Virus record (IMG/VR): IMGVR_UViG_3300035665_000207
Coordinates: 1 to 26,596 of that record
Length of the DNA stretch: 26,596 nt
Reading direction: 5' to 3' (one strand)
Origin: a virus
Made by a program: the position numbers and the translations under genes. Of this stretch, positions 361 through 18,871 are shown in pieces. Under the pieces are notes generated by a model. The model was given only the letters and a program-made list of their open reading frames with translations. It was not told the DNA's origin and searched no databases. How positions within the stretch are numbered: the stretch's first letter is position 1; the number at the start of each line of letters is the position of its first letter.

Positions 361-1008
361 TTACTGCGCGACGGAGCGTTCGTCGTCAACAACACCGACA
401 GGCTGCTCAGCCTCTTTGTGTGATACATCAAATATATCAGACCTTGACTCTGCAAGTGCTCGAATCGATATGGATTTGACCGGCTGAATGTCCTCGACCT
501 CATCGGCCACCGGAAAGCCTAATGTCAGTTCTGGTGCCGTCGTGCGAACAAAGAACGTCGCAGCTCGGTAGCGAAGCATTAGTTCTGGCATACTCTGCCA
601 CTTGCTACCCGACTTCGATAGCCAGCCTTCCTTCTTGGCAATTGCCATCGTGACCGGCGGACCTTCAAGGATCTCTCCAGTGCGAAGATCGACCGCTTTG
701 GCGTAGCAGCCATAGCCGTCCGTTCCAGGTTCACCGAAGAACGTATAGGTGATGCCTGAGAACTTGCCACATTGGTTGAACGCAGCAATGAGGAATTGGC
801 TCGACCACGATGGTTTGCCATGGACGATGTACAGGTTCTGAAGAACCATTAGCGGCTTCATGCCAAGGCTGTCGGCAACATCGAGTGCAATCATGCAGTT
901 CGATACGTTGCCTTGGAATTCCTTCGGTATCAGCGTCGATGTTGACAACGCCTTCGCCTTCCGCTGATGTAGATCAAATTCCTGTGATGCGATTAACTCT
1001 GTAGTCAT
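361..1008 (-). CDS. recT: RecT-family single-strand annealing protein
   Basis: The 215-residue product would coat the 3' single strand left by an exonuclease and anneal it to a complementary strand during phage recombination or replication restart. The family is recognised by the LDVADSLGMKPLMVLQNLYIVHGKPSW region (residues 42-68) and by W-x-x-MPELMLRYRAATFF near 137-153, which matches the conserved MPE-M-RYRA block of phage RecT proteins. An in-frame ATG 13 codons upstream exists, but the ATG at 1008 has the ribosome site (GGTGAGG) and is preferred. The tail after residue 175 is acidic and probably disordered. The partner exonuclease lies 16 bases upstream in the same operon, as in RecE/RecT and Red systems. 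Confidence 0.85.
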   Translation of the reverse strand: MTTELIASQEFDLHQRKAKALSTSTLIPKEFQGNVSNCMIALDVADSLGMKPLMVLQNLYIVHGKPSWSSQFLIAAFNQCGKFSGITYTFFGEPGTDGYGCYAKAVDLRTGEILEGPPVTMAIAKKEGWLSKSGSKWQSMPELMLRYRAATFFVRTTAPELTLGFPVADEVEDIQPVKSISIRALAESRSDIFDVSHKEAEQPVGVVDDERSVAQ

Positions 1009-1024
1009 TTCCTCACCTTTCGAT

Positions 1025-1837
1025 TTATAAAGCCCAACTTGGAACACTTACCTGTAACAAACTTCGTTCACCTTCCTCGGACCAATCATCACTTGCCGTT
1101 CGTCGCTTGTAGTCTTCCAGCAACCTGTGCATTTCCAGCTTGCCCGCGAACAACGACGGCTCATCGATTTCCATCGCGTAGACTCGATATGGTTCTTTTG
1201 TCTCGACGACGATTAGAGCGAACCGTGACTTTGGCTCCTCGTAGTACCGCGATGCGCCCTGAAGATAGAACGCACCCTGAAGATGGTAGCCAAAGTCCGC
1301 GATCTTATTCGACGTCAGCTTATCCTTACCTTGCACGAATCCCGTTAGGTCATTCGTCGTCTTGATATCGATCACCCATTCATTCGAGCACACGATATCT
1401 GGAATGCCTTTGCATTCAACGCCCGTCTCTTCGTCGGTCCACCTAATCGGCATCTCGACGTTGCGTTGCCATTCAAACACTAGCTTGTAAAACGGATGGT
1501 CCCAGACTCTTTCAGAGATGATATTCGCACGGCGAAAATCTCCGGAACGAATCAGGGTCTTGCCGGGATTCGCGTCGACAAATGCGTCCCACGCTTTGCC
1601 ACGACGCTGACCATTGCTGGTCAGTGCTTCATCCGGTATCGACACGTACTGATCCAAGACAAGATGCGGCTGCAATGTCATCGAGTGAACCAGCGAACCG
1701 AACTCCATAGCATCAGTCGGTTCAATCGATAATGTCTTTGTGACGTAAGTGGCTTGGTATTTTCGCGGACTTTCTTTCAGTAGCTTTAGCTGGCTCTGGC
1801 TCACTGCCGAGCTGTGATTGTAATCCGTAGGTCTCAC
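1025..1837 (-). CDS. RecE/Cas4-like PD-(D/E)XK exonuclease
   Basis: This 270-residue protein resembles the C-terminal nuclease part of RecE (the DUF3799/PDDEXK group), which degrades the 5' strand of double-stranded ends. The core is visible: H51 in GSLVHSM, D147 in CKGIPD, then D157 and K159 in VIDIKTT, and the downstream HLQGAFYLQG block (185-194) typical of motif IV. The open frame extends to a TTG at 1855, but the GTG at 1837 has an AGAGAGG ribosome site six bases ahead and gives the natural VRPTDYN start. It overlaps the end of the zinc-finger gene by 116 bases in another frame. It feeds the RecT protein encoded just downstream. Confidence 0.85.
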   Translation of the reverse strand: MRPTDYNHSSAVSQSQLKLLKESPRKYQATYVTKTLSIEPTDAMEFGSLVHSMTLQPHLVLDQYVSIPDEALTSNGQRRGKAWDAFVDANPGKTLIRSGDFRRANIISERVWDHPFYKLVFEWQRNVEMPIRWTDEETGVECKGIPDIVCSNEWVIDIKTTNDLTGFVQGKDKLTSNKIADFGYHLQGAFYLQGASRYYEEPKSRFALIVVETKEPYRVYAMEIDEPSLFAGKLEMHRLLEDYKRRTASDDWSEEGERSLLQVSVPSWAL

Positions 1838-2090
1838 TTTTTGCCTCTCTTTCAAGTTCGAGTTTTTGTTGTTGACGTTTGCTCATATCGCAAGCAAAGC
1901 ATGTTTTTAAATTGATGAGTCGTCCACATCCACCGCAGCGATGCGGCTCGACTGTTTCGTAACGCTTTTCTAGGTATGCGGATTTGTTCCGATACTTCTG
2001 CCTGTAGAGTGCGTTCTTACACGTCTTCGAGCAGCAAGAGTGCTGTTTGCTGCTGAGCGGTATGCCGCATATCACGCACCTACGCGCCAT
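1722..2090 (-). CDS. Small two-zinc-finger protein
   Basis: The 122-residue protein has two cysteine clusters: C5-x2-C8 with C19/C20 and C24, then C52-x2-C55 with C64-x2-C67. The spacing fits two zinc ribbons or fingers, with a basic stretch between them that could bind nucleic acid. After residue 68 the chain is charged, Gln/Glu/Lys-rich and probably disordered. This tail is encoded across the start of the exonuclease gene, so its length may be shaped by the other frame. Its ATG lies inside the last codons of csrA (11-base overlap), so translation is probably coupled. Small zinc proteins are common beside phage recombination genes, but no specific function can be assigned. Confidence 0.7.
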   Translation of the reverse strand: MARRCVICGIPLSSKQHSCCSKTCKNALYRQKYRNKSAYLEKRYETVEPHRCGGCGRLINLKTCFACDMSKRQQQKLELEREAKSETYGLQSQLGSEPEPAKATERKSAKIPSHLRHKDIID

Positions 2091-2259
2091 TGATGCGGTC
2101 CTTCTCGATTAAGGTGCCCCGTAGTATCTTGACATCCTCTGGTGCCGATACGCTGACGGAAGTGCGGTTACCTTGGATTCGTTCGATAGTCACGATGATA
2201 TCGCTACCGATCAGAATCCACTCTTTTTCTTTGATCTGTAGTACTAGCTTCCCTGCCAT
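2080..2259 (-). CDS. csrA: CsrA/RsmA-family RNA-binding regulator, phage-encoded
   Basis: This 59-residue gene starts at ATG 2259 behind GGAG and ends TAG at 2080. The whole length aligns with bacterial CsrA: KLVL opens strand 1, ILIGSDIIVTI matches MIGDEVTVTV, then IQGNR, then SVSAPEDVKILRGTL matches GVNAPKEVSVHREEI. CsrA is a dimer that binds GGA in RNA hairpins, usually at ribosome sites, and blocks or stabilises the mRNA. The key strand-5 arginine (E. coli R44) is kept as R47 and the L4 equivalent as L7. The R6/R7 pair is I9/K10 here and VRIG is TSVS, so RNA specificity or affinity may differ. It sits between a 64-residue unknown gene, whose stop is 11 bases upstream, and the overlapping zinc-finger gene, inside the recombination operon. 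Confidence 0.85.
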   Translation of the reverse strand: MAGKLVLQIKEKEWILIGSDIIVTIERIQGNRTSVSVSAPEDVKILRGTLIEKDRINGA

Positions 2260-2270
2260 GTGATTTCTCC

Positions 2271-2465
2271 TTATTCCACTTCTTTGATCGTCATATATGG
2301 TGATGTAATTACCGAACTTGCATCCAAATTATCAATACGGTAGTAGCCCCTGAAGTAACTCATCTCTGGGATAAACGCCTTCAGCGGCTTGTTATACGTG
2401 TAGCGGATCGTAACGCTACCATCTGTGATGTCGTACTTTTTGCCATGCACAAACTCCTCTTGCAT
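2271..2465 (-). CDS. Hypothetical protein, 64 residues
   Basis: I do not recognise this family. The start ATG at 2465 follows AAGGA, which is inside the last codons of the preceding gene. The stop TAA abuts the ribosome site of csrA, so the two are surely co-transcribed. The product is mixed charge with many Tyr and Ile residues (for example VTIRYTYNKPL and YFRGYYRIDN), suggesting a small beta-sheet domain with no signal peptide or membrane segment. Its position directly ahead of csrA makes a partner or regulator role conceivable, but there is no sequence evidence for that. Confidence 0.6.
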   Translation of the reverse strand: MQEEFVHGKKYDITDGSVTIRYTYNKPLKAFIPEMSYFRGYYRIDNLDASSVITSPYMTIKEVE

Positions 2466-2471
2466 TGCGAT

Positions 2472-2693
2472 TTAATCCTTGTCTAGGAATTGAATCTTAA
2501 GCTTGCCGTTGCCGGCACGATAAACATTGCAGTGGCGACCAAGCTTGCGGGAGTGTCTACGCAAAGCCTCAGTGACAGCCTGTCGACTTCGTTTCATTTT
2601 TGCATAATCGATGACATGTACGTCACCGTTCGTCCATTTGTCAAATGGATAGCTGGCGGGCCGACCGCCGAGATTAACCTTCGTCTTCGTCAA
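2472..2693 (-). CDS. Small basic protein, possible nucleic-acid binder
   Basis: The 73-residue product starts at a TTG (2693) with GGAG nine bases upstream, inside the end of the preceding gene (20-base overlap). It opens with VNLGGRPASYPFDKW, continues with a strongly basic helix (KMKRSRQAVTEALRRHSRKLGR), and ends in a short strand-like KLKIQFLDKD. The basic helix suggests DNA or RNA contact. I recognise this layout only as a common type of short phage protein of unknown role. It overlaps its upstream neighbour and is seven bases from the next gene, so it is part of the early operon. Confidence 0.55.
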   Translation of the reverse strand: MTKTKVNLGGRPASYPFDKWTNGDVHVIDYAKMKRSRQAVTEALRRHSRKLGRHCNVYRAGNGKLKIQFLDKD

Positions 2694-3021
2694 AGCTGAG
2701 TACTCCGTAGATAGCAGAGGCTAAATCTGCTTGGTTAATTTGATCGCCAAACCGCTCAAGCATTAACAGCCCAGCGGCTGTCCCAAACTGGTATAAGTTG
2801 ACGCTGTAGCCGGCACATGACATAGCAGCCATCACAAGGCGTGCATTGTGTGCCTGTGCATTGCATTCTCCCGCGACAATCTTGGCGAGATTGCCGATGT
2901 AGTTAAGCCGAAATTCGACATTCGATTCGAGCAACTCTTCGTCCGTAAGCTTGTTGGCTTCCATGGTGCGCACCACATCCTCAAATCGATGCGATGCACA
3001 AAGTGATAAGTAGTCTTTCAT
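2674..3021 (-). CDS. Hypothetical protein, first gene of the early operon
   Basis: This 115-residue protein is not recognised. It appears mostly helical, with an acidic C-terminus (FDEDEG) and a Gly/Ala-rich middle (AGYSVNLYQFGTAAGLLMLERFG). There is no signal peptide. It is the first gene after a strong promoter at 3059-3087 and has the tandem-hexamer leader, with CGGAG as ribosome site eight bases before the ATG. As promoter-proximal gene of the recombination operon it is probably made early and in quantity. Confidence 0.65.
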   Translation of the reverse strand: MKDYLSLCASHRFEDVVRTMEANKLTDEELLESNVEFRLNYIGNLAKIVAGECNAQAHNARLVMAAMSCAGYSVNLYQFGTAAGLLMLERFGDQINQADLASAIYGVLSFDEDEG

Positions 3022-3029
3022 GTGCGACT

Positions 3030-3087
3030 CCGAAAACTAAAACGAAAATGTTTCTGACAAGATAGGGTTCGTCACCAGAGATGTCAA
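3030..3087 (-). promoter_or_regulatory. Sigma70-like promoter with TTTCGT triplet leader (minus)
   Basis: The -35 box is TTGACA (3082-3087), the spacer 17 bases and the -10 box TATCTT (3059-3064). Starting a few bases into the predicted transcript are three tandem hexamers, TTTCGT, TTTAGT and TTTCGG (3047 to 3030), which run into the ribosome site of the gene at 3021. The same arrangement precedes three plus-strand genes. Confidence 0.8.
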
Positions 3088-3106
3088 TCTTGGAAAACAA
3101 AAAAAT

Positions 3107-3281
3107 AAATTTTGGGATAGACCGATGTTTTTCTATTTTTGATTTCCAAGAAAAAAGCAAAGCGGAGTCCCGAAAAAATCAGTACTAACCAAATGCCGGC
3201 AGTTTTTGGAAATTAGAAAAGCCTGAATCAATCAGATTCTGGGGGGTGATCCCAAAATCGGGTGAGACAGAGAGTGTGCGG
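3107..3281. repeat. Control-region repeat, copy 1 (about 175 bp)
   Basis: This gene-free stretch lies between the divergent promoters at 3059 and 3347. It aligns over its length, with several small gaps, to 4678-4854. Shared blocks include AAATTTTGGGATAGACCG at the left end, an A-rich block after GGAG, GAATCAATCAGATT (3225-3238), a G run and GTGTGCGG at the right end. In this copy ATTTTGGGAT near the left end is the reverse complement of ATCCCAAAAT at 3249-3258, so the ends could pair. No ORF is conserved between copies. Confidence 0.75.
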
Positions 3282-3346
3282 CGGAAAAACGGTGTCGGCG
3301 GCAACAATAGCGGCGGCTGCCTGGGTGAAAAAAAGAAAGAAAAAGA

Positions 3347-3402
3347 TTGACAAGATCGCGGCGGAAATGTCGAATAGCTGTATGTTCCGTTTCCGTTTCC
3401 GA
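3347..3402 (+). promoter_or_regulatory. Promoter with TTCCGT triplet leader (plus, first)
   Basis: TTGACA (3347-3352), a 17-base spacer and TCGAAT (3370-3375). TTGACAAGAT and TCGAATAG recur at the same distance in the next promoter (with GTGACA), which supports them as real boxes. The leader carries TTCCGT, TTCCGT and TTCCGA in tandem at 3385-3402, followed by the AGAAGG ribosome site of the 3418 gene. Confidence 0.75.
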
Positions 3403-3417
3403 GAAAGAAGGTGCAAT

Positions 3418-3657
3418 ATGGCAACAAAGACAGCAGTGAAGAAAGCAGACATAATCGAGGAGCTTGAATATCTGTATCAGCAGGTGGTGCAAGATATGGC
3501 AAATTGTGAAGCAAGTGCGATTCTGTGTGATGATGGCAGCGTGACAATCAGTGTCGACTGCGACTACAGCGACCGGCTCGCATGTGACATCTTCGCGATA
3601 TCTGCGCGTATCAATCGAATCGAGTTCGAAATTTGCTATGTCACTCGAGAAGTGTGA
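3418..3657 (+). CDS. Hypothetical protein, 79 residues
   Basis: I do not recognise this small acidic protein. The frame is open from 3262, but the ATG at 3418 has AGAAGG before it and lies behind the promoter at 3347, so the upstream part is leader, not coding. Residues 9-30 look like an amphipathic helix (ADIIEELEYLYQQVVQDMAN). The rest reads as strands (SAILCDDGSVTISVDCDY), perhaps a small alpha-beta domain. Its stop codon overlaps the -35 box of the next promoter, so each gene of this pair has its own promoter. Confidence 0.65.
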   Translation: MATKTAVKKADIIEELEYLYQQVVQDMANCEASAILCDDGSVTISVDCDYSDRLACDIFAISARINRIEFEICYVTREV

Positions 3658-3709
3658 CAAGATTCCCAAATGTGCGTCGAATAGGTATTAGTTTCGTTTC
3701 TGTTTCTGA
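3654..3709 (+). promoter_or_regulatory. Promoter with TTTCGT triplet leader (plus, second)
   Basis: GTGACA (3654-3659), a 17-base spacer and TCGAAT (3677-3682), followed by TTTCGT, TTCTGT and TTCTGA in tandem at 3692-3709. The predicted start falls at or just before the first hexamer. The -35 box includes the stop codon of the upstream gene. Confidence 0.75.
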
Positions 3710-3730
3710 TCTGTTTTAAAGGTTCCAAAA

Positions 3731-4201
3731 ATGACAACAAACAAAGAAATCAACAAGATGAGTCTAGAGATGTGCAACGAAGAACTGGGTGCAATGTGCC
3801 AAGAGTCAACGTTTTCCTGCGTGCATGAAGCCCGCGAAGCACTTATCGAGGCGACACAGAGTATGTATCGATTTGACATCACCGACAACAACCACGCAGA
3901 GTACGACCTGCGATTTTGCGAAGCCGTTGGCGTTATCGCCGACTGGTACGGAGATATCGCCGACTGGTCTGAACTTGACCTAGACGACCGACGCACAATG
4001 CGATGCGAGGTCCGCGACGCTATCGAGTCTATCGCAGCTCCGGCTTCGGGAGATGTCGATACACTGCGAGATTACGCACGACTCGTCTGCGCAGCGGTTG
4101 CCACGGTGATCGGTGCTCACGATTTTGCTGGTCATGCTAGCTATCGAGTGACTGCTGCGGAATGTCGCGGCTTGGTCTTACGGATTGAGTTGGCAGAATA
4201 G
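3731..4201 (+). CDS. Hypothetical acidic protein, 156 residues
   Basis: The family is not recognised. The ATG at 3731 follows AAAGG and the leader of the promoter at 3654. The protein is acidic and apparently all helical, with several cysteines spread along it (residues 15, 23, 30 and later). An acidic middle (IADWYGDIADWSELDLDDR) precedes a run of small residues (LVCAAVATVIGAHDFAGHA). There is no signal peptide or clear membrane segment. Small acidic early phage proteins are often inhibitors of host enzymes or defences, but that is only an analogy. The next gene follows 55 bases later without its own visible promoter. Confidence 0.6.
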   Translation: MTTNKEINKMSLEMCNEELGAMCQESTFSCVHEAREALIEATQSMYRFDITDNNHAEYDLRFCEAVGVIADWYGDIADWSELDLDDRRTMRCEVRDAIESIAAPASGDVDTLRDYARLVCAAVATVIGAHDFAGHASYRVTAAECRGLVLRIELAE

Positions 4202-4217
4202 TTTCAGAACGCCCTTC

Positions 4218-4236
4218 TGCCGGGTAGGCTCCGGCA
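4218..4236 (+). promoter_or_regulatory. Intercistronic hairpin
   Basis: TGCCGG (4218-4223) and CCGGCA (4231-4236) form a 6-bp hairpin with a 7-base loop between two plus genes, about 10 bases ahead of the GGAG ribosome site of the next gene. Only ATTT follows, so it is more likely an mRNA stability or translation element than a terminator. Confidence 0.4.
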
Positions 4237-4256
4237 ATTTCCCTTGGAGATAACAG

Positions 4257-4613
4257 ATGAAACCAACATCATCGGACTGCGAAACGATCCGCCAATTGCT
4301 CGATGCGGGTCGGGAAGAGGAGGCGCTAGTGCTAGCGACAGCACTACTTGATGCATGCGAGGGAACGGGTGCCGATCAGTATTTGCGGCCCATATTGTTC
4401 GCGGTCGCCCCCGAATGCTTTTTGGGGCATCCACATTGCAATCGCAGGCTGTATCCACGATGGCGCTGCACATTTCAGGGTGTATCGACGATTGTTCGCG
4501 CAGCAACTCAGGAGGAGGCTCAGTATGCTGCAGCGCAGGTACTGATGGAGATATCTAGTATTCACGCTGAGCGCTTGATCGATAACGTGAGTCGCGTTCC
4601 GTCGTATGTGTGA
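4257..4613 (+). CDS. Hypothetical protein, 118 residues
   Basis: ATG at 4257 with GGAG seven bases upstream. The first 35 residues form a TPR-like helical pair (CETIRQLLDAGREEEALVLA, then TALLDACEG). A Cys/Pro/Arg-rich middle follows (APECFLGHPHCNRRLYPRW) and then another helix (QEEAQYAAAQVLMEISS). I cannot name the family. It shares the transcript of the 156-residue gene, and a strong terminator follows 17 bases after its stop, so this two-gene unit ends here. Confidence 0.6.
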   Translation: MKPTSSDCETIRQLLDAGREEEALVLATALLDACEGTGADQYLRPILFAVAPECFLGHPHCNRRLYPRWRCTFQGVSTIVRAATQEEAQYAAAQVLMEISSIHAERLIDNVSRVPSYV

Positions 4614-4629
4614 GTGATCCCAGCGTTGA

Positions 4630-4662
4630 AAGGGTCTTGCAAAAATTGCGAGGCCTTTTTTT
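4630..4662 (+). terminator. Rho-independent terminator
   Basis: AAGGGTCTTGC (4630-4640) pairs with GCGAGGCCTT (4648-4657) with one bulged G and G-T wobbles, around loop AAAAATT, followed by seven T. It closes the plus unit 3654-4613. Confidence 0.8.
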
Positions 4663-4677
4663 ATGCGCGGGCGAAAA

Positions 4678-4854
4678 AAATTTTGGGATAGACCGCACTT
4701 TTTTGTTTTGCGTTTTTCCGGAAAAAACGGAGCTCGAGTTCGAAAAAAACGGATTTCACGCTGGCGGCCCCTGATTTTAGAATTCTCAAAAACCAGGAAT
4801 CAATCAGATTTCAGGGGGTGGTACAGCTTTCGGGTGTGCGGGGGGGGTGTGCGG
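4678..4854. repeat. Control-region repeat, copy 2 (about 177 bp)
   Basis: This is the second copy of the element at 3107-3281. It starts with the identical AAATTTTGGGATAGACCG and shares GAATCAATCAGATT (4797-4810) and the terminal GTGTGCGG. This copy has its own palindrome, TTTTTCCGGAAAAA, and a CCCCTGA/TCAGGGG stem around the shared core. The terminal match of copy 1 (ATTTTGGGAT/ATCCCAAAAT) is absent. It lies between a terminator and the TTGCAA array in a 520-base stretch without genes. Confidence 0.75.
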
Positions 4855-4887
4855 AAGCTCACGCATGTACAGTAGCCGATTTTCTTC

Positions 4888-5016
4888 TTGCAATAAAGTT
4901 GCAACTTACTTGCAATCGTTGTGCAACTTACTTGCAATTCTATTGCATGCTCTTGCAATCATTGTGCAACTTTTATGCAACTTGATTGCAAGTAAACTTT
5001 GGTTGCAGTTTTGCGC
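4888..5016. repeat. TTGCAA array with 11-bp phasing, candidate iterons
   Basis: TTGCAA or a one-base variant starts at 4888, 4899, 4910, 4921, 4932, 4943, 4953, 4964, 4975 and 4986. That is ten copies at 11-base steps with a single 10-base step. Two looser copies (TTGCAG at 5003 and TTGCGC at 5011) follow out of phase. The five bases between hexamers vary, though CTTAC and TCRTT recur. Spacing of one helical turn puts all sites on one face of the DNA, as in arrays read by cooperative binding proteins. The parC site of plasmid R1, with ten 11-bp repeats for ParR, is a close known analogy. Origin, centromere or operator are all possible. Confidence 0.85.
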
Positions 5017-5022
5017 TTAGAG

Positions 5023-5120
5023 AATATTCGCGAGAATTGGCCGAATATTGGAAAAACGGTGTGGACAATATGCCGAATAAAGCTACTATGGTTGTAGTTT
5101 CGTTTTCGTTTTCGTTTCAG
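5023..5120 (+). promoter_or_regulatory. Promoter with inverted repeat and TTTCGT triplet leader (plus, third)
   Basis: TGGACA (5062-5067), a 16-base spacer and TACTAT (5084-5089). Transcript start near 5096 leads straight into TTTCGT three times (5098-5115) and TTCAG, then the AGAGAGG ribosome site. Just upstream an inverted repeat AATATTCG/CGAATATT (5023-5030 with 5042-5049) may be an operator. The promoter drives the three-gene cassette 5134-6217. Confidence 0.7.
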
Positions 5121-5133
5121 AGAGGGTACAGCT

Positions 5134-5322
5134 ATGTCTTTTGTGGCAAAATTTTTCAGTGGTTGGGATATGATGAAGGTAGAACGATTCGTATGGGCTC
5201 ACGAATTGTGGGAAGACTGTGAAGGCTTCTCGCTGGAGTATCAATTGTTGGCTATCCAGGCCTACCTACGTGAACGCGCTCGAGAGCGCGTAGAGTATCG
5301 ACGATTGCGGGGGGAGCTCTAA
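5134..5322 (+). CDS. Hypothetical small protein, 62 residues
   Basis: ATG at 5134 follows AGAGAGG at ideal distance. The protein is unrecognised. It begins with aromatic, hydrophobic residues (MSFVAKFFSGWDMMKVERFVW), has an acidic middle, and ends in a highly charged helix rich in Arg and Glu (YLRERARERVEYRRLRGEL). It is the first gene of the cassette. Its TAA overlaps the ATG of the following microprotein (TAATG), so translation is probably coupled. Confidence 0.65.
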   Translation: MSFVAKFFSGWDMMKVERFVWAHELWEDCEGFSLEYQLLAIQAYLRERARERVEYRRLRGEL

Positions 5323-5390
5323 TGTCGACTGAATGCGTATTGTTGCTGGTTATCATTTTTGTGTTATTGAGCAATAGGGGTGATTTATGA
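5322..5390 (+). CDS. Membrane microprotein, 22 residues
   Basis: A short frame links the two larger genes exactly. Its ATG overlaps the upstream stop (TAATG at 5320-5324) behind a GGGGGGAG ribosome site, and its TGA overlaps the next start (ATGA at 5387-5390). After MSTEC the chain is almost wholly hydrophobic (VLLLVIIFVLL, then SNRGDL), long enough for a short single membrane span. Both overlaps and the ribosome site argue for real translation. The alternative is that it only serves to couple translation of its neighbours. Confidence 0.5.
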   Translation: MSTECVLLLVIIFVLLSNRGDL

Positions 5391-6217
5391 AGCTTTGGAA
5401 AGTTACTGTATTGGATGAGCTACCTACGTTTGCGCGCGATTCTCGCGACAACGTTTATAATTCGTTTGGCAAGGGTTGCGATACTAGCTTGGCGCTCAAT
5501 TTCGGCATATCAGCAGGGGAGAATTGCGACCCTGGGTGTCGCATGCATCCCGAATCGACATCGCCCGACAAGATCGGTGGTTGTTATGCGACAACGATAG
5601 AAAAACAGAGGCCGGCCGTTCTAGATAATCTGGCCATTAAAGAAGATCTTGGCGCGCTTAAGGTAGTATCGCTCGCGATTATGCAATGGGGGGAGCTCCA
5701 GGTATTAATTCGCGATAATGATCTCAGACAAGTAAGTTGGGTGCGCATTTCTTCAGGAGGCAGTGTACCTGCTGAAGATCAAATACCCGTACGGTATCAT
5801 AAGCGCTATAAGGCCTTATTTCGCCAACTAGTGCAATTGTGGCGGTCCGTGGGGGCAATGGTTCACTTTCCTGTGGAAAGCATTGACAAGGCCGCCTGGT
5901 ATCGTTCGTTCCTAGGTGATCTAATTGTCATTCGTTTAAGCGCTCAGAGTCAGGATGAATTCTCTGGGGACAATGGAGCTATGTCGTTTGTGGTTGGTGA
6001 GCATATCACTAGTAAGAATAGCAAGCGCGTAAAGCGCGACAGGGTAGCTTATGCGAGAACATATGCTCGTGAGCGCAAGCAGAATACTGGAAGGCCTACG
6101 ATGCATTGTGGGGCAATTGAGAGTACTTTCCTACGCCGAGAATTCAAGCAGAAGTGCGGTATTTGTAAAGCTTGTGCGATGGACGATATCGATATCCTGT
6201 ACAGCAAGCATAATTGA
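5387..6217 (+). CDS. Gp88-like cysteine protein (phage accessory)
   Basis: The 276-residue protein resembles phage Gp88/Gp37-Gp68-type families, which share an N-terminal Asn/Lys-rich segment followed by a C..C..CY cluster and a late Cys cluster. Here these are NSFGKGCDTSLALNFG, ENCDPGC and GGCYATT in the first 70 residues, and MHCGAIE with KCGICKAC near the C-terminus. Metal or Fe-S binding is therefore likely, and distant kinship to radical-SAM folds has been considered for such proteins, but no reaction is known to me. RISSGG near residue 120 could be part of a barrel. ATG at 5387 has AGGGG ahead and overlaps the microprotein stop. A terminator follows at 6245. Confidence 0.55.
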   Translation: MKLWKVTVLDELPTFARDSRDNVYNSFGKGCDTSLALNFGISAGENCDPGCRMHPESTSPDKIGGCYATTIEKQRPAVLDNLAIKEDLGALKVVSLAIMQWGELQVLIRDNDLRQVSWVRISSGGSVPAEDQIPVRYHKRYKALFRQLVQLWRSVGAMVHFPVESIDKAAWYRSFLGDLIVIRLSAQSQDEFSGDNGAMSFVVGEHITSKNSKRVKRDRVAYARTYARERKQNTGRPTMHCGAIESTFLRREFKQKCGICKACAMDDIDILYSKHN

Positions 6218-6244: not shown

Positions 6245-6274
6245 AACCCAGGCCTGACAAACCTGGGTTTCTTT
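6245..6274 (+). terminator. Rho-independent terminator of the plus cassette
   Basis: AACCCAGG (6245-6252) and CCTGGGTT (6262-6269) form a perfect 8-bp stem with a 9-base loop, followed by TTTCTTT. It ends the unit 5096-6217. Confidence 0.85.
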
Positions 6275-6286: not shown

Positions 6287-6377
6287 CAACTCGAGTTGTC
6301 TACCCGAGTTCTACCCGAGTTCTACCCGAGTTCTACCCGAGTTCTACCCGAGTTCTACCCGAGTTCTACCCGAATCC
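6287..6377. repeat. 11-bp tandem repeat TACCCGAGTTC with flanking palindrome
   Basis: Six exact copies of TACCCGAGTTC run from 6301 to 6366, and a seventh, changed at the end (TACCCGAATCC), reaches 6377. Immediately before lies the perfect palindrome CAACTCGAGTTG (6287-6298), which shares CGAGTT with the repeat unit. The period is again 11 bp, but the unit is unrelated to TTGCAA. It lies in the 431-base gap between converging transcription units, so it is unlikely to be a promoter-proximal operator. Simple slippage expansion is possible. Confidence 0.9.
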
Positions 6378-6399: not shown

Positions 6400-6528
6400 T
6401 TGACACGTTTATCCGGTTCGTGTACACCCGGGCATCACATTTTTCTACTACACTTGAGCTAGCGACCGCAGTGGCTCCCCAACGTTAGCCAAATGCCTCA
6501 AATAAACCCCTATTTAGGTGGTTTTTTT
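6400..6528 (+). ncRNA. Possible small RNA unit between converging operons
   Basis: TTGACA (6400-6405), a 17-base spacer and TGTACACC as a poor but extended -10 (6421-6428) precede about 90 bases without an ORF. These end in a hairpin AACC-CCTA/TAGG-T-GGTT (6505-6523) with seven T, a terminator on the plus strand. The interior can pair GAGC with GCTC and GCTA with TAGC. The hairpin alone may simply be a two-way terminator, since the late minus operon also ends nearby (6649). Confidence 0.3.
6505..6528 (+). terminator. Bidirectional-type terminator between converging units
   Basis: The stem AACCCCTA (6505-6512) with TAGG, a bulged T and GGTT (6515-6523) is followed by a T run to 6528 on the plus strand. 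On the minus strand the same hairpin is followed by TTTATTTG, so it may also stop the late operon that ends at 6649. Confidence 0.65.
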
Positions 6529-6648
6529 AGCTTGACCCTAGATATTTTCCCATTTCCGCGACCAAGATGTGCTGTATTTTGACCGTACGCTGCATATACG
6601 CTTATTACGCACGTTTTGCCGAAGATTCCGGCCAATGAGTCGAGTTGA

Positions 6649-7902
6649 TCACTCGATGCCTAAGAACGCACGCCATGCATTAATTGCTGCTTGCCCATGG
6701 TGCTGCATTACCCATTGTGCTACCTGCTCGCAACCGGATCGATCAACTTCTGTGATGGCAGTCACCCAGTCCGATGGGTCCGAACTCTCTACGATTTGCG
6801 CGGCAATGCTCGGGCCGATCCCAAATGGGCCACATACGACAGGGACTCTAGCAAGCGCAGCTTCTGCCATTGAATAGCCAAAGGCCTCTTGATTTGCCGT
6901 GGACAAAAAAATGTCGGCGCTCTTCAAATGATTTACGTTACTGGGGTGCTGTCCGATGTTGACGCAATTGCTGGGTAGCTTCGTCCCCCGAGGTGCAGAG
7001 ACAAATACTTCATATTCTGCCGGCAGTGCCTCTGCGATCTGCATCATTAGTTCCGGCTGCTTCTCGATGCTCCAGCGGTGATTCCACAGGATGCGAACCT
7101 TACCGTCGGTGCTGCCGATCGATCGAACGCCTGAGTCAGCGATCGGATTGGGTAGGTAGGTGACATTCCAGTGCCTCGCCACATCCTCGTTAACTGCGAT
7201 TCCGCCATGACAAAAAGGCAGTGCCTCACCAAAAGCTTGCTGTGCCCACGTAGAAAGTAAACTGCCGTGATGGACCGCTAGGAACTTCTTGTCTGGGAAC
7301 TCTTGGATGATCGCTTGCAGGTTTGGGATCTGACCCCAAACGAGCACAATTTCCGATGCGTCGACTAGGGAGGCTTGAGATTCAAGGTCCAGACAGATTC
7401 GGAGGCTGCTGTCAGTGCAGTTGCTCTTGGTTGCGTAGATGCCGCTGTAGGATTTGCCCAGCACTTCTTCGATTAGAATCTTGGCCCAGGTCTCCATGCC
7501 ACCGGATTGATTGAATACCTGCAACAGGAATCCGATCTTGGCGTCAGGGAAATGCCTTCGGTCATCGCAGTCCAGGCACATCGTGCAGCCCGCGACCATC
7601 TCTTTGGTCATCTTCGGCAGTTTTCGAAGGTATGCTTCGCCGTGCTTTGAGCACTCGTAGATTTTCGGCTTACCGCTGCACCCGCAATTGATTTCACGGA
7701 GTGGCTGGCCACGATACATGCAGGGCAGGTCAGGTGTGGCTACCTTGACTGCAGATCGTCGTTCCGCTCGGGATAAGATAGGCGCAGGCTCAGCATATGT
7801 AATCTCATCAAGCCTCTTGCCGCATGAGCAGTAAAAAGGCAAGACTTTGACTTCAAGCCTGTAACTAGTTCGGCAAAAAGGACAGCTGAAACGTGTGGTC
7901 AC
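6649..7902 (-). CDS. GT4-type glycosyltransferase with N-terminal zinc ribbons
   Basis: The 417-residue protein has two parts. Residues 1-115 hold paired cysteines (C7/C10, C25/C27, C61, C73/C75, C84, C106/C109/C112), which suggest several zinc-binding ribbons. From about 122 a GT-B fold follows: NQSGGMETW (131-139) is the donor-side glycine loop and EAFGYSMAEAA (339-349) is the E-x7-E block of GT4 enzymes that contact the nucleotide sugar. It would transfer a sugar to a virion or cell-surface acceptor. GTG at 7902 overlaps the Cys-rich gene by 38 bases, so it belongs to the late operon as its last gene. Zinc ribbons in front of a GT4 domain are unusual outside phages. Confidence 0.75.
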   Translation of the reverse strand: MTTRFSCPFCRTSYRLEVKVLPFYCSCGKRLDEITYAEPAPILSRAERRSAVKVATPDLPCMYRGQPLREINCGCSGKPKIYECSKHGEAYLRKLPKMTKEMVAGCTMCLDCDDRRHFPDAKIGFLLQVFNQSGGMETWAKILIEEVLGKSYSGIYATKSNCTDSSLRICLDLESQASLVDASEIVLVWGQIPNLQAIIQEFPDKKFLAVHHGSLLSTWAQQAFGEALPFCHGGIAVNEDVARHWNVTYLPNPIADSGVRSIGSTDGKVRILWNHRWSIEKQPELMMQIAEALPAEYEVFVSAPRGTKLPSNCVNIGQHPSNVNHLKSADIFLSTANQEAFGYSMAEAALARVPVVCGPFGIGPSIAAQIVESSDPSDWVTAITEVDRSGCEQVAQWVMQHHGQAAINAWRAFLGIE

Positions 7903-9115
7903 TTAAGTCGCACTCCCATCCGCCCGGCCTTGAGACTGTGGTGAAAACAGGCGAGTCGCCACAATCAAATACATCAGTTTCTGCGCGATAAAATTCAGAT
8001 CCATTTATCCCATAGAGCACTAGTTCGGCGGTAAATTTATCACACGAAAGACATAGAACTCTGACAATAACTTCGTCAAGCAAATAACAACTGTTAATTA
8101 TGCTACCGAACTCAACCCTGCACGGCACCGTTTCAAACAAGGCGTTGTTTCCGACTGTTCCTATTGCCGTAAAGTTTTCAACTGGGCCACTGACTGTCAG
8201 GACGTATTTGTCGTTGCGAAAGCCCGTACAATTAAAACAGTCGCACGCACAGCAGCCAATCCTTTCAAGCGATTCTTCTGGCCCGCTAGATTCAGCGTAT
8301 CCACTATATAAAGTGACAACCGCCTCTTCAGTATTGCATGGATCTGGCACGCTGCCTGCACATGAATCTACACTTGTAGTGGAGACGTAGGTAAACGGAT
8401 CGAATAGTTCGGCGCAGTCGCAGTATTCCAGTTCAAACGTATGTGTGTATTCTGTCCATTTCGGATGATCGCACCCTTCTCCGCCGTCAATGGGGAGTTC
8501 TCCAAAGCCGGCCTCCAGTTCGACGACCGTGTATTTGATCTGAAGTGTAATTTTTCCACAGGAACCATCCCATTCATTACCGCTGAGTATTAGCAGGTAA
8601 TTGGGGCTCTCGTCGCCACCTGGGTCTGACCAGGAACTGCCAATACCTATATTTGAACTGGGACATGACTCTGTGTCTTCTGCCGAATCGTATGGGCATG
8701 CGTAGTCGTTTGCCCTCCAGCAATTCGCCCAGTTAACACCATAAGCCGTTCCGTCAACGATAAGTGATCCGCCAGTATCAAATGCTCGATACGCGAAGTA
8801 AGCGACCCAGTCTTCGCAGGTATTTTCGATGGGAGTTATGGCACTATAACTAGTGCATCCAAATTGCCCAAGAGTAAAGCGATTATCGAGTTGCCGATAG
8901 CAGGCCCAGCACGGTGCGTCCTCGGGGCATTGGTCTGGTGGTAATAAAAGCGGATCAATCCCTGTCTCGTCTGGCACAGGCATCTGGATATCGATACCGC
9001 ATACCGAACAATCGCTTGGGAGTAGCCCGTTGGCGCATGGAAAAAAGCAGCCATCAAGACATGATGGCGCATCGCAATCACATGGACAGCCTGGACTACC
9101 TTTTTTGAAGTTCAT
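7865..9115 (-). CDS. Cysteine-rich late protein, probable tail-tip or adhesin
   Basis: The 416-residue product has about 33 cysteines, many in dense clusters (CPCDCDAPSC at the start, CCACDCFNC near the middle). Most of the rest reads as beta strands (YVLTVSGPVENFTAI, VEFGSIINSCYLLDEVIVRV). It may be built from small disulfide- or metal-bound beta domains. It lies after the tape measure and tail-tip genes, where receptor-binding or tail-tip proteins are found. The frame is open to 9148, but ATG 9115 overlaps the previous stop (ATGA) and is preferred. There is no signal peptide. I do not recognise a named family. Confidence 0.65.
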   Translation of the reverse strand: MNFKKGSPGCPCDCDAPSCLDGCFFPCANGLLPSDCSVCGIDIQMPVPDETGIDPLLLPPDQCPEDAPCWACYRQLDNRFTLGQFGCTSYSAITPIENTCEDWVAYFAYRAFDTGGSLIVDGTAYGVNWANCWRANDYACPYDSAEDTESCPSSNIGIGSSWSDPGGDESPNYLLILSGNEWDGSCGKITLQIKYTVVELEAGFGELPIDGGEGCDHPKWTEYTHTFELEYCDCAELFDPFTYVSTTSVDSCAGSVPDPCNTEEAVVTLYSGYAESSGPEESLERIGCCACDCFNCTGFRNDKYVLTVSGPVENFTAIGTVGNNALFETVPCRVEFGSIINSCYLLDEVIVRVLCLSCDKFTAELVLYGINGSEFYRAETDVFDCGDSPVFTTVSRPGGWECDLSDHTFQLSFLPN

Positions 9116-9465
9116 TCGGTTGGGCAACTTTCCATTACTACGACCCATTTACCAGACACAAATTCTTTAGTAATTACGATATAGGCATCACCAGCAATTT
9201 GCTGACCGGATAAATTGTAAGCTTTGAATGTCATGCTTGTTGTGGCAAGGGAGTCCGAATCGCCAATCTTCATGACACCAACGACTGCAGTTCCTGGCGT
9301 GTTGTTAGTTCTAGCTGGAATGCCTGTTGATCCGGTCTTCGCAATCGCGATCCTGCGATTCTCAGGAGGCGAAGGTATGTTGGTCCCCTTGACACCTGAT
9401 TCGCGCACGAGATTGCGCACTCGGATCGCAGTGTGTTTTGAAAAGCCAAATACCTTCGGGTCCAT
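9112..9465 (-). CDS. Hypothetical tail-region protein, 117 residues
   Basis: Coupled by TAATG to the gene upstream and by ATGA to the Cys-rich gene. The N-terminus (MDPKVFGFSKHTAIRVRNLVRE) is a helix. The middle contains GIPARTNNTPG, a block I know only from uncharacterised phage tail-region proteins, and the C-terminal half is beta-rich and ends MESCPTE. Probably a minor structural protein of the tail tip or fibre; no enzymatic motif is present. Confidence 0.6.
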   Translation of the reverse strand: MDPKVFGFSKHTAIRVRNLVRESGVKGTNIPSPPENRRIAIAKTGSTGIPARTNNTPGTAVVGVMKIGDSDSLATTSMTFKAYNLSGQQIAGDAYIVITKEFVSGKWVVVMESCPTE

Positions 9466-9824
9466 TAGGTTTCTAATGCCTCAATTTGAAGTCGACTTGT
9501 TCCGGTCGTGGTCTGGACACGCACTGTAACCGATGGGACAAGCGGAACGACAGCTGGCTCTCCTGCCTTGAGCTGCATGAACGATACGAGCGCTGTGCCG
9601 GCACCAACATTGATAGGATTGGTTCCGATGTTCCGAAACAATGCCCAGCGTGGCGCAGAGACGCTACCAAATCCAACGCTCGCTTCGGTGGTGCTGACGT
9701 CGATCGTTCCAGGGTTTGGCCCTCGAGCGGTCGTCTGATCGGCAGCGACACTGTAAGACTTCGTAAAAGATAAATTTCCATTGGTGCAGGTAAGCCCTGC
9801 GGTGACCCGAATTTCATTTGCCAT
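9465..9824 (-). CDS. Beta-rich structural protein, 119 residues
   Basis: ATG at 9824 with AAGGAG. The sequence is Thr/Ser/Val/Gly-rich throughout, with short strands (RWALFRNIGTNPINVGAG, then AVVPLVPSVTVRVQTTTG), as in small beta-sandwich tail or decoration proteins of siphoviruses. It holds no cysteine pairs beyond C13. It lies between the putative distal tail protein and the Cys-rich protein, so a tail-tip or fibre-attachment role is likely. Confidence 0.6.
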   Translation of the reverse strand: MANEIRVTAGLTCTNGNLSFTKSYSVAADQTTARGPNPGTIDVSTTEASVGFGSVSAPRWALFRNIGTNPINVGAGTALVSFMQLKAGEPAVVPLVPSVTVRVQTTTGTSRLQIEALET

Positions 9825-9837
9825 AGAGTACTCCTTG

Positions 9838-10746
9838 TTACTGCGTTTCCCTTATGCGTATCCACGAAAAGTCTACGGGCACTGGCCCTGCCGCAATGCG
9901 ATAAATTACATCACCTGCTTGATTTGCTAAAAAAAGTCCGTCGGAGCCGAGCTTCCCGACATCGCCCTGATTTTCAAATTGAAAACTAAATGGCTTGCTG
10001 TTTTTATCCACTGTGTCAAGCTGAGGGACGACAGTATCCCAGAAACCTACGAATGTGGGCTCTGGCGCTTCGTTTGCAACAGCGATACTAAATTGTTCTC
10101 GCTCTGCCCATCGTAGTTCAAAATTGACTTTCCAGCACCTGACACCATTTGTAACGCCAAAGCTTGCACCTGCGATATTAAGCAGCCAAGATCTGCTTGG
10201 AGCACCTAAAAAAGCAGTATTGTTACTGACATGATCGTAGTCTTTTACTAAATCATACACACTCAGGGATTCCGGCATGTATTGCGTAAACTTAATTACG
10301 ATGATTTTGCGCTTTATCGTAATTGGTGGAGAATAGGGCCGGCCCGCAAAATTTACAGCGTTTATCGACTTTTCATAAGTCTCAAAATCGAAGTTGACGA
10401 TCGAATACCAACTGAGCGGATTCCCGCTATCTTGTTCGTTGCCGCCAGTATCGGACTGATTGTCTTGTGGTTCGTTATCAAAGTCTGCACTGACGGTCCA
10501 GTATTTGTTGTTGTTTTCAAATTGCTCCGCACTCTTGGACTTGCACAGAAGTGGTGCTGGGATACCATCAAAAAAGTAAAATGCATTGACCAGAGGGATG
10601 CCGGATGTACCAAGGATATCGCCTTCACCAGCAGTGCCTGTCTGATCATAGACAATGTACTCACGGGTGGCGTTATAGATCAGCCGCTCACCGTCCGTGG
10701 TAACTTCGATTTGCCTGCCTTTTTTCTGACCAATGAGTGTTGTCAT
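9838..10746 (-). CDS. Probable distal tail/baseplate protein
   Basis: The 302-residue protein follows the tape measure directly (TAATG overlap), where distal tail (Dit-like) proteins are encoded. It is beta-rich and aromatic, with no obvious coiled coil. Residues 80-120 contain a polar low-complexity segment (NEPQDNQSDTGGNEQDSGN). I cannot match it to a known Dit by motif, so the call rests on position, length and composition. Confidence 0.5.
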   Translation of the reverse strand: MTTLIGQKKGRQIEVTTDGERLIYNATREYIVYDQTGTAGEGDILGTSGIPLVNAFYFFDGIPAPLLCKSKSAEQFENNNKYWTVSADFDNEPQDNQSDTGGNEQDSGNPLSWYSIVNFDFETYEKSINAVNFAGRPYSPPITIKRKIIVIKFTQYMPESLSVYDLVKDYDHVSNNTAFLGAPSRSWLLNIAGASFGVTNGVRCWKVNFELRWAEREQFSIAVANEAPEPTFVGFWDTVVPQLDTVDKNSKPFSFQFENQGDVGKLGSDGLFLANQAGDVIYRIAAGPVPVDFSWIRIRETQ

Positions 10747-13508
10747 TATAAAATTAAACCTATAAAGCCTTGTTTTTTCTGCTCTTCAAGTAATTTATTG
10801 TTTATCTCCTGCAGACGTGTTTGTTTTTTCTGCTCTTTCATCGCTTCAGTGGCTTCAGTGCTCTTTCTCTGTGCCTCAACCTTGTTCACAAGATCTATCA
10901 TCTCGGTTCGGCTCATCGCCCCTGCAGGTAAATTACGACCAGCCTCCAATGAACGCTCTTTGTCAGCGTCATCTTGCTGCAAAAGTGCCTTCCGCTCCTC
11001 CAGTAAAGATTTGATTCTAGATTGTCTGGCTTTTGCAGCATTTCGGACAGCATCATCCGCCAGACCTTTGAGAGACTCCTCTGTTCCCTTCATTGAATCA
11101 GCAAAAGCCTGTGCGGACTGGGCGACTGCATTCATGGCAGAATCAATCGCATCAGAAATGATTCGACCGGCAGTTTCTTTGCGTCTCTTTTCTCGTTGCT
11201 TTTCTTCTGCGACCAAGTCTGCTATTTCAGCGTCTCTAAGTCGCTTTCGCTCTGCAGGTGTCATTCCGGTTGCTTGATATTCCATTAACTCGAGCGGGCT
11301 CAGTGGTGCCAGCGCATTTCCAAGTTCTGTGCCCTTAATTCCGCCTTGCATGAAATCAAAAAATGGTCCCATGCGACCCTCTTTTAAGAATTTAATTTCG
11401 TCTGTAAAAATTTTTATCGCGTCTGTGATTCTTGTTATCTGTGAGACGTCTGCTAATTCTCCAATCGCTTCTTTAAATTTTGTCCACTCGCTGGTCATTT
11501 GATTAATCTTGCCAGCCAGCTCTTGTGACTGCTTTGCGGCCATTCCGAAAAAACGCCCACCTTCCTCTGTGGCGGTCTTAAAGGTATTGGCGGTCTCTTG
11601 TACGGAGAGGTTACCAGCCTCCATTTCTTTTCTAAGTTCTGCCATCGACCTCCCGCTTGTGCGAGCCATTTCGGCAAGCGGAGAAAAGCCAGCATTAACA
11701 AATTGGAGCACTTCCTGTCCAGTAAGTCTTCCGGCTGCAGTTACCTGACCAAACGCTAGCGCTAGTGACTGCAATCGCTCCGATGATCCAGCAGAAATTT
11801 CAGCCAAACGCCTTACGGTCGGGACAAGATCTTCCGTACTAACACCAAACTGCGCCATAACAACGGCGGCCCTAACGACTTCGTTTGCCTGAAGGCTAGT
11901 CTGAACTGCCACCTGACGCAGCGCAGAAAAGGTTCGCATTGCTTTAGCAGTGCTTCCGAGGACAACTTCCAGTTTAATTAAGGCAGTCCTCATATCCATG
12001 TATGCTGCCGCAGACTCTTTGGCAAAATTGATCGAGCCAGCGCCGATCTGGTATCCGGCCGCAGCAGTCGTGATAGCGCCAAACGGCGATAAACCAGAAA
12101 GCAGGGCACCACCGAATTCCATGCCCATGCCTTTTTGGCCCTGAACCGAAAGATTCTGCCGCTGCCTTGCAAGCGATTGTAATGCTGCAGTCAGTTGCTG
12201 TGTGCTTATGAGGCCTTTTTGCTGCAGAGAAATAAGTTCGCGCTCTTGCGCGATAAGTCGCTCATGTGCACTCATTCCTTGCTGCATTACTTGAGCAAGA
12301 ATCTTTTCTGCATTTGCTTTTTCTCTTTTGGCTTTTATTGCATCTTGATCGGCTTTTTTCTGTGCGTCATTTTGCCGAAGTTCCCTTGCTCGGGCCCTTA
12401 AAGCAGCGTTAACAGCAGCCTGTTCGGCTTCAGTTGCACCCACAAACTGTTTTTTAAGTCTCGATAGATCTTGCAGGGTCTTCGCGCCTGCAGCGTAGTC
12501 TTTAGCTGCCTGAGCAATGGCTTTATTGACTTGATCCTGGGTTGTTTTGCCAGTTTTCTGGACTCGAGTGATGGCGTCGAGCGCGATGCGAAGTTTACCT
12601 GCCTCACCGGCCTGCTTGGTCAACAATCCATTAACCAGCGCCATGTCTAATTTCATCTGCCGATCAGCGTCCTTCTTGGCAGCAGCAGCCTCTTTTTTCG
12701 CCGTAGCCGCAGCTTTTTCGGCAGCGGCCTCAGCATTGAGTTTGTTAACAATCTGATCGATCCGATACTGAAAATGTGGATACATCGCCGTCAACTCGGC
12801 AATGGCTGCCGCCTGATCCTTTGGTCCTTTTGCAGATCGCAGAAAGCTCTCCAAGGTCTTATTAATGGCTTTATCTGCAATGTCCGTACTGACCTTATGT
12901 CGACGATACGCCTTGTCCACCATGTCTAAATCACGAACAACTTGCTTCATGCCGGAACTGTGCCCGGCTGCCATTTCCTTGACGGAGTCTGCTAGTTTCT
13001 TGTTGGCAGCCTTACGAGCATCGGCATCTCGCTGTGCCTTTCTAGCTGCCCGCTCCGCTTCGCGCTCTTGCTTGCGAACATCATCCATGGCTTGTTCGCG
13101 GGCCATTTTTTCCAGCTTTCTCGTCTGGCGAGCCTTCGCAGCAGCCAATGCCTCTGCGTCGGCATTATCCTTAAACGCTTTTGCCATTGCCTCAAGTTGC
13201 GGCTTAAGTGCTGGAATGGTCTGGATAAGGTGCTGAATTATCTTCTCGTACTCAGCAACGCTTTTAGCGCCCTTTAGATATTTATTGACGATTGCATCAA
13301 GCATCTCCTTGGACTGCTCGCCGCTTAACTTTCCCTCTTCTTGTAATTTCACAAGTCTGGCTAGATTTCTTTCGTACGACCCTGCGGCCCCCTTGGCTTC
13401 ATTGACCACTCGGGTTAGCGCTGCCATATCGGTGCGCATGCCTCGAACGCCTTTGGTGTCAACAAAAACGTCGAGACGAATGCCACCGTATTGAATCACA
13501 CCAGCCAT
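10746..13508 (-). CDS. Tail tape measure protein (TP901-type)
   Basis: The longest gene, 920 residues. The first 440 residues are almost continuous Ala/Lys/Glu/Gln-rich coiled coil. About 465-490 is a hydrophobic Gly/Ala segment (LLSGLSPFGAITTAAAGYQIG), followed by the TP901-type core (MRTALIKLEVVLG, VVMAQFGVSTEDL, GQEVLQFVNAGFSPLAEMA), then a second coiled coil to the C-terminus. The protein sets tail length and helps DNA pass the membrane. By the usual rule of about 0.15 nm per residue the tail would be near 140 nm. It follows the frameshifted tail chaperones, as in lambda and HK97. Confidence 0.92.
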   Translation of the reverse strand: MAGVIQYGGIRLDVFVDTKGVRGMRTDMAALTRVVNEAKGAAGSYERNLARLVKLQEEGKLSGEQSKEMLDAIVNKYLKGAKSVAEYEKIIQHLIQTIPALKPQLEAMAKAFKDNADAEALAAAKARQTRKLEKMAREQAMDDVRKQEREAERAARKAQRDADARKAANKKLADSVKEMAAGHSSGMKQVVRDLDMVDKAYRRHKVSTDIADKAINKTLESFLRSAKGPKDQAAAIAELTAMYPHFQYRIDQIVNKLNAEAAAEKAAATAKKEAAAAKKDADRQMKLDMALVNGLLTKQAGEAGKLRIALDAITRVQKTGKTTQDQVNKAIAQAAKDYAAGAKTLQDLSRLKKQFVGATEAEQAAVNAALRARARELRQNDAQKKADQDAIKAKREKANAEKILAQVMQQGMSAHERLIAQERELISLQQKGLISTQQLTAALQSLARQRQNLSVQGQKGMGMEFGGALLSGLSPFGAITTAAAGYQIGAGSINFAKESAAAYMDMRTALIKLEVVLGSTAKAMRTFSALRQVAVQTSLQANEVVRAAVVMAQFGVSTEDLVPTVRRLAEISAGSSERLQSLALAFGQVTAAGRLTGQEVLQFVNAGFSPLAEMARTSGRSMAELRKEMEAGNLSVQETANTFKTATEEGGRFFGMAAKQSQELAGKINQMTSEWTKFKEAIGELADVSQITRITDAIKIFTDEIKFLKEGRMGPFFDFMQGGIKGTELGNALAPLSPLELMEYQATGMTPAERKRLRDAEIADLVAEEKQREKRRKETAGRIISDAIDSAMNAVAQSAQAFADSMKGTEESLKGLADDAVRNAAKARQSRIKSLLEERKALLQQDDADKERSLEAGRNLPAGAMSRTEMIDLVNKVEAQRKSTEATEAMKEQKKQTRLQEINNKLLEEQKKQGFIGLIL

Positions 13509-13517
13509 GTGCTTCGC

Positions 13518-13847
13518 CTATTTGATAAGCCTGAGACCGGAAACAACTTTTTGCTCAATATCAGACGAGGTTTGCACGCCATGTTCGACTTTATACCTGA
13601 GTCTTTTTGGCAAGAAGTCGTTTTCATGCAAGACATCTAATTGCACCCCATGAGACGACGCGAACAAATTCATAAATCTGTGCAGCATAGTAATCATTGA
13701 TGCAAATTCACGCTTATGCTCATCGTAGGAATTGATCGGATACATGTCATCGTACGCCTCCCAAAAATCGACCACTCGAGGGTCTACGTTTTCCATAAAC
13801 TGAAAAACATCGATCTCGCCAGTGCGCAAGCAAAGTTCCGCGATCAA
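13518..13847 (-). CDS. Tail assembly chaperone, T part (reached by -1 frameshift)
   Basis: The 109-residue frame has no ATG and no ribosome site; its first possible start is a TTG that overlaps the upstream TGA. It is open further upstream and joins the G chaperone frame at the A7 slip site 13871-13877. Ribosomes that slip back one base would make a fusion of about 236 residues (119 from the G frame, 117 from this one). In lambda the G-T fusion bridges the tape measure and the tail tube subunits. The content (FWEAYDDMYPINSYDEHKREFASMI) is acidic and helical, fitting T domains. It is probably not made as a free protein. Confidence 0.6.
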   Translation of the reverse strand: MIAELCLRTGEIDVFQFMENVDPRVVDFWEAYDDMYPINSYDEHKREFASMITMLHRFMNLFASSHGVQLDVLHENDFLPKRLRYKVEHGVQTSSDIEQKVVSGLRLIK

Positions 13848-14227: not shown

Positions 14228-14516
14228 CTTCTTCGCCTTTCTCTAGAGACTTAAAGTGTTCAGCAACTTCCTGATCAGTTGGCGGCATCACAACGGGAAC
14301 TGAGCGGCCCAGGGTCTGCTCAATACATTTCTTCATTTCGGACAGCATCGATTTGTGCATTTCTGCGAAAATATTGATCGGTGCACCTTCCTGCTTTCCG
14401 ACATAGCCTACGTGCAGACCGTTTGCATAAATCATCCACTGATCGTGCTCGACTTCAATGGGACCGAACATGCTACGCTGGATGCCTTTGTGAGGCTTCA
14501 ATTCAATCTTGTACAT
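14220..14516 (-). CDS. Hypothetical tail-region protein, 98 residues
   Basis: ATG at 14516 with AAGGA. It begins MYKIELKPHKGIQRSMFGPIE, has a short strand pair (HDQWMIYANGLHVGYVG), a helix (AEMHKSMLSEMKKCIEQTLG), and an acidic end. It lies between tail tube and tail chaperone genes. I do not recognise the family. It overlaps the chaperone gene by eight bases. Confidence 0.6.
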   Translation of the reverse strand: MYKIELKPHKGIQRSMFGPIEVEHDQWMIYANGLHVGYVGKQEGAPINIFAEMHKSMLSEMKKCIEQTLGRSVPVVMPPTDQEVAEHFKSLEKGEEDE

Positions 14517-14543
14517 AGTAAATCCTTAGCCCAAGGAAAAAAA

Positions 14544-14999: not shown

Positions 15000-15010
15000 C
15001 CGAAGGACTC

Positions 15011-17702: not shown

Positions 17703-17704
17703 AG

Positions 17705-18319: not shown

Positions 18320-18337
18320 ATTTGCCTTTCAAGCCCT

Positions 18338-18826: not shown

Positions 18827-18871
18827 AGGTTATCTCCAGAAAATGTTGTGTTTACGACTAAATCAGAAAGA

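Follow-up and report, generated by a model that had tools for sequence, protein, structure and literature searches.

An array of ten TGCAA-core units with an 11-bp period lies at 4888-4996 of a viral genome fragment, within a 195-bp segment that stands in one of two paralogous leaders and is missing from the other. Its cores were retained between internal duplicates while the spacers diverged, and other phages have comparable, shorter arrays at their late promoters and replication genes. We tentatively favor the view, with a confidence somewhat short of even, that the array serves a rightward promoter near 5062-5089 as a multi-site operator or enhancer, on which a protein would assemble cooperatively. 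The window, that is the whole stretch of DNA analyzed, is an entire linear IMG/VR viral record (26.6 kb; 26,596 nucleotides), and the genome is incomplete.

Units and cores of the array

The array and its parts are as follows.

4888-4996, + strand: array of ten TGCAA-core units, 11-bp period, one 10-bp step
Units 1-3, + strand: 4888 TTGCAATAAAG; 4899 TTGCAACTTAC; 4910 TTGCAATCGTT
Units 4-6, + strand: 4921 GTGCAACTTAC; 4932 TTGCAATTCTA; 4943 TTGCATGCTC (10-bp step here)
Units 7-10, + strand: 4953 TTGCAATCATT; 4964 GTGCAACTTTT; 4975 ATGCAACTTGA; 4986 TTGCAAGTAAA
4910-4995, + strand: 43-bp internal duplication (4910-4952 and 4953-4995), cores kept, spacers diverged
5003-5008, + strand: eleventh near-copy, TTGCAG, out of phase, 17 bp on from 4986

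Eight of the steps between units measure 11 bp and one measures 10 bp. TTGCAA is exact in six of the ten units and carries one mismatch in the other four, while TGCAA is exact in nine. When sites with at most one mismatch were chained at a step of 10-11 bp, the longest chain comprised ten sites, compared to a maximum of three in 100 windows simulated with a first-order Markov model of the window. These results bear out the preliminary description, which had noted ten TTGCAA-like sites every 11 bp with one 10-bp step. It had also called the spacing exactly one helical turn; the 11-bp regularity holds, but a turn is ~10.5 bp, hence an 11-bp step drifts in phase by ~17 degrees per unit. Column information is concentrated in TGCA (2.0 bits) and the last A (1.5 bits), with 0.8 bits in the first T and at most 0.7 in all other columns, and we therefore take the core to be TGCAA rather than TTGCAA. 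A coding role is unlikely, as only short GTG-initiated frames traverse the array. No Rfam family was found, and plasmids yielded no match to the array; the only match, an array-like one, was in an archaeal virus (vir323).

Units 3-6 are a copy of units 7-10 (43 bp), and units 1-2 match units 3-4 over 22 bp (4888-4909 versus 4910-4931). Between the 43-bp copies, 1 of 20 core positions differs, compared to 10 of the 23 remaining positions (Fisher p=0.004). With both duplications taken together, the differences amount to 1/30 in cores and 15/35 elsewhere (p=1.6e-4); the core was picked after the array had been viewed, hence both p-values are somewhat optimistic, although their direction still supports selection on the core. 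That spacers diverged while cores stayed points to a selected, putative binding site. The variable spacers noted earlier are not independent of one another, given the 43-bp and 22-bp duplications.

The inserted segment and its surroundings

The array lies in a rightward gene block, between an upstream gene that ends at 4613 and a gene that starts at 5134. The relevant features are listed below.

361-3021, leftward: early genes, including RecT, an exonuclease and others
3103-3420, + strand: promoter-leader module copy 1, without the array; TTGACA-17-TCGAAT at 3347-3375 (by reading)
3418-6217, rightward: gene block between the leftward early and leftward late genes
4633-4662, + strand: terminator-like hairpin and T tract closing the upstream rightward genes (by eye; not reported by the scan)
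4674-4854, + strand: promoter-leader module copy 2, TTTTGGGATAGACCG ... AATCAATCAGATT ... GTGTGCGG
4855-5049, no strand assigned: 195-bp array-bearing segment, missing from the paralogous leader 3103-3420 (leader alignment)
5023-5049, no strand assigned: perfect dyad AATATTCG-N11-CGAATATT, operator-like, between array and promoter
5062-5089, + strand: predicted promoter TGGACA-16-TACTAT, a weak match (9/12)
5134-5322, + strand: 62-aa ORF, first gene 3' of the array, no family match
5387-6217, + strand: 276-aa Cys-rich protein, second gene 3' of the array, no family match
6299-6373, + strand: another 11-bp array, 6.8 perfect copies of TCTACCCGAGT, beyond the 62-aa and 276-aa genes
6649-26398, leftward: late genes (terminase, portal, capsid, tail, glycosyltransferase)
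3385-3401, ~3680-3700, 5098-5117, and near 3022-3050 on the minus strand: TTTCGTTTTCG-like sequence

The region 4674-4854 has diverged from its copy at 3103-3281, and the two modules stand ~1.6 kb apart. Exact TTTTGGGATAGACCG and AATCAATCAGATT are common to the modules 3103-3420 and 4674-5133, and their alignment scored 67, compared to 35 for the best of 300 shuffles. The 195-bp insert is clean: past 5050 the similarity returns with GGAAAAACGGTGT, followed by a TTTCGTTT-rich leader ahead of each gene. The module had no match in other viral contigs. Since the array segment is absent from an otherwise similar leader, the simplest reading of the sequence is that a control segment may have been added to one of two similar promoters. 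Several early genes, some rightward and some leftward, are also preceded by an initial transcribed sequence resembling TTTCGTTTTCG.

According to the operator/enhancer reading, a phage-encoded DNA-binding protein, probably encoded outside this fragment, would bind the TGCAA cores side by side, with one protein per 11 bp on nearly the same helix face. Its cooperative assembly would control the rightward promoter, which would drive the 62-aa and 276-aa genes; the array ends ~70 bp upstream of the predicted promoter and ~140 bp upstream of this gene pair. Overall, promoter matches in this region are no commoner than expected by chance (7 found versus 4.8 expected). Activation is slightly preferred as the sign of regulation, because the candidate promoter has a non-consensus -35 whereas the array-free paralogue has TTGACA. 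Against a regulatory role, no regulator gene adjoins the array, the array stops short of the predicted -35 whereas Ltr-type arrays abut their promoters, and no relative carrying the array locus was found. If the reading is true, the array would be unusually long for a phage regulatory array that acts cooperatively.

Neighboring genes were also inspected. Relatives of the 276-aa protein were sought in viral contigs and phage records and none was found, and its predicted fold had a mean pLDDT of 37.5. A likeness of this protein to GP88, noticed by eye only, was rejected as Pfam and hhalign lent it no support; genes truly matching GP88 (PF17338) lie 553 bp and 477 bp from TGCAA arrays in two other contigs (L076 and L086, respectively). 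The gene upstream of the array (4257-4613) had no family match. RecT relatives in a scan of genomes were spread over many phyla and gave no host assignment, and no cultured close relative of this phage lineage was found. A phage-encoded CsrA-like protein occurs at 2080-2259 on the minus strand, and another in the related contig L203 (6709-6969); the assignment is based on PF02599 (E 8.5e-12, one member of the protein set), and the placement at 2080-2259 was made by reading.

Arrays in other viruses and in relatives

Viral contigs yielded at least 120 stretches with four TGCAA words on an 11-bp step, compared to 34 for the reversed word in a complete scan; the reversed word contains CpG and may be depleted, so this excess is indicative only. 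When 2.9 million viral contigs were scanned completely, five consecutive units occurred just 29 times. Among the matches listed, identical spacers were seen in 18/101 TGCAA arrays versus 18/34 control arrays (p=1e-4), and all-different spacers in 50/101 versus 8/34 (p=0.006). Sixty-two of the 101 distinct TGCAA arrays among the matches listed fell inside a called ORF and 39 outside, although short ORFs are unreliable.

Three contexts recurred: inside replication-initiator genes, beside late transcription regulators, and near integrases. Proteins encoded by array-containing genes matched Lin1244_N (6/20), DUF1376 (2/20) and HTH_36 (2/20), and some intergenic arrays adjoin primase or helicase genes. 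The 80 neighbor proteins of arrays outside replication genes included regulator matches to phrog_36 (12), phrog_248 (9) and the Alt-like phrog_2198 (2), as well as nine integrases; those regulator families were absent among the 25 families listed for neighbors of control-word arrays. At late-regulator loci the word was mostly TTGCAG or TTGCAC, just before the promoter, and TTGCA ran along transcription in 10 of 12 loci. At one contig end (L337:12660-13010), an 11-bp array of TAGTTGTCGAA continues in phase after a five-unit TTGCAA array.

The survey suggests that the same short core and spacing serve unrelated phage functions. The preliminary description had ascribed the constant phase to selection for a cooperative protein. 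A repeated, phased, selected site is supported by the fixed cores in diverged duplicates and by the recurrence in phages of 11-bp TGCAA arrays with variable spacers; cooperativity we infer. A bolder and improbable extension is that TGCAA on an 11-bp step would be a widely shared docking code in phages, read by unrelated late activators, initiators and perhaps integrase accessory proteins, with the ten-site array as a long-form enhancer of an accessory operon for a protein family as yet undescribed.

Among relatives of this phage, L214 has a terminase that is 93% identical and shares 76% nucleotide identity over 5.6 kb; it represents the other, early half of such a genome. A lambda-O-like initiator (phrog_678, E 1.9e-8) is encoded there, as is a possible helicase loader; the initiator gene has internal 23-bp repeats that bear no relation to TGCAA, and the contig carries no TGCAA array. 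L203 (RecT 70%) is syntenic and spans the locus, but the whole block is missing and a small HTH_17 gene stands instead. At the corresponding locus (L203:5893-5920), a likely promoter, TTGCAA-16-TACAAT, has a TTGCAA hexamer as its -35. L252 is identical to 6477-14902 (8426 bp) and ends at 6477, hence it supplies no second copy of the array region; none of the contigs with a shared terminase reaches the array locus.

Alternative readings and known systems

The main rival, possible but doubtful, is that the array comprises replication iterons, perhaps of a secondary origin, where an initiator made elsewhere would open nearby DNA. The arrays inside initiator genes and those adjoining primase or helicase genes favor it, as does the somewhat AT-rich composition of the array. 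However, AT content around the array is 0.55-0.70 with no sharp peak, no strongly AT-rich unwinding element is apparent beside it, and no initiator gene was found in the window. The O-like initiator of L214, with its own repeats, is encoded in the genome half missing here and, together with the absence of the block from the syntenic L203, argues against the array being an obligatory origin of the lineage. A GC-skew switch, proposed earlier as a check, coincides with the rightward genes at 3418-6217; the skew change follows gene direction and gives no evidence for an origin.

It is unlikely that the array is nonfunctional today, a tandem repeat in decay whose regular spacing is left over from slippage and duplication. 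The 43-bp and 22-bp duplications are visible inside it, and the perfect TCTACCCGAGT repeat, 1.3 kb away just after a terminator-like hairpin (6245-6269) between convergent operons, indicates that simple expansion can generate 11-bp repeats in this region. Nevertheless, differences between the duplicated segments avoid the cores, and, by the spacer counts above, plain tandem repetition accounts for most control-word arrays but for a minority of TGCAA arrays.

We give less credence still to a role in attachment or recombination, with the units as arm-type or excisionase sites, or to a boundary at which an exchangeable block meets the late genes. In four contigs (L003, L041, L053 and L105) a comparable array is flanked by an integrase on one side and by the lysis or tail end on the other, integrases recur among array neighbors, and the block that contains the array runs opposite to the late and early genes on either side of it and is missing from L203. 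On the other hand, neither the block nor the window yielded an integrase or excisionase, and arm sites are usually few and spread out.

Action as a folded single strand, an RNA or DNA hairpin rather than duplex DNA, is very improbable. Relative to dinucleotide shuffles, folding is much stronger on both strands (z -4.0 to -5.5), but when cores were kept and spacer order was permuted, 119 of 400 versions folded equally well, and the best structure accounts for little of the ensemble; we rejected this reading since the good folding follows mostly from the palindromic cores.

A partition site like R1 parC or tubC is barely credible, despite the ten direct 11-bp repeats that had suggested parC, reportedly a subject of Dam and Gerdes in 1994, as the closest parallel. 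No ParA-type ATPase (AAA_31) was found in four records, all fragments (G000, G003, L203 and L252; control positive 14/14), and the repeats are contiguous rather than split around a promoter. As in the earlier remark on the window, no partition gene was found; StbA/ParM gave no match either, in a search whose control was equally silent, and the genome is incomplete.

Three known systems come closest to the array. R1 parC likewise comprises ten direct repeats of 11 bp; its core sequence differs from the TGCAA core. ParR repeats of 11 bp are discussed in PMC9426499. Unlike at parC, no par genes were found here in the incomplete records and no promoter splits the ten repeats. Iterons in initiator genes (lambda O type; Lin1244_N/DUF1376 genes) have TGCAA cores on an 11-bp step in several cases. 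The array here, by contrast, is intergenic, with no initiator in the window, and the O-like gene of L214 has other repeats.

A closer parallel than parC is offered by the late-activator sites of Alt (TP901-1), Ltr and ArpU-RinA in phages of Gram-positive bacteria. The sites of Alt are four imperfect direct repeats spanning -76 to -32, and binding to sets of four imperfect repeats is general among Ltrs (PMC13123087). In the Alt/Ltr loci that we examined, four TTGCA-core units are set 11 bp apart, with spacers that vary. Like them, the array here consists of direct repeats with a constant step upstream of a (weakly predicted) phage promoter. Unlike them, it has ten units and ends ~70 bp before the predicted -35 at 5062 instead of abutting the promoter; its asymmetry is slight, with TGCAA on the + strand, the orientation opposite to that of Ltr-type arrays. 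No activator gene lies directly upstream, where 4257-4613 stands, and the rightward genes 3' of it (5134-6217) are not late, the structural genes (6649-26398) being leftward. The array thus falls outside the Ltr class on distance, neighbor gene and orientation, while sharing with it direct repeats held at a constant step.
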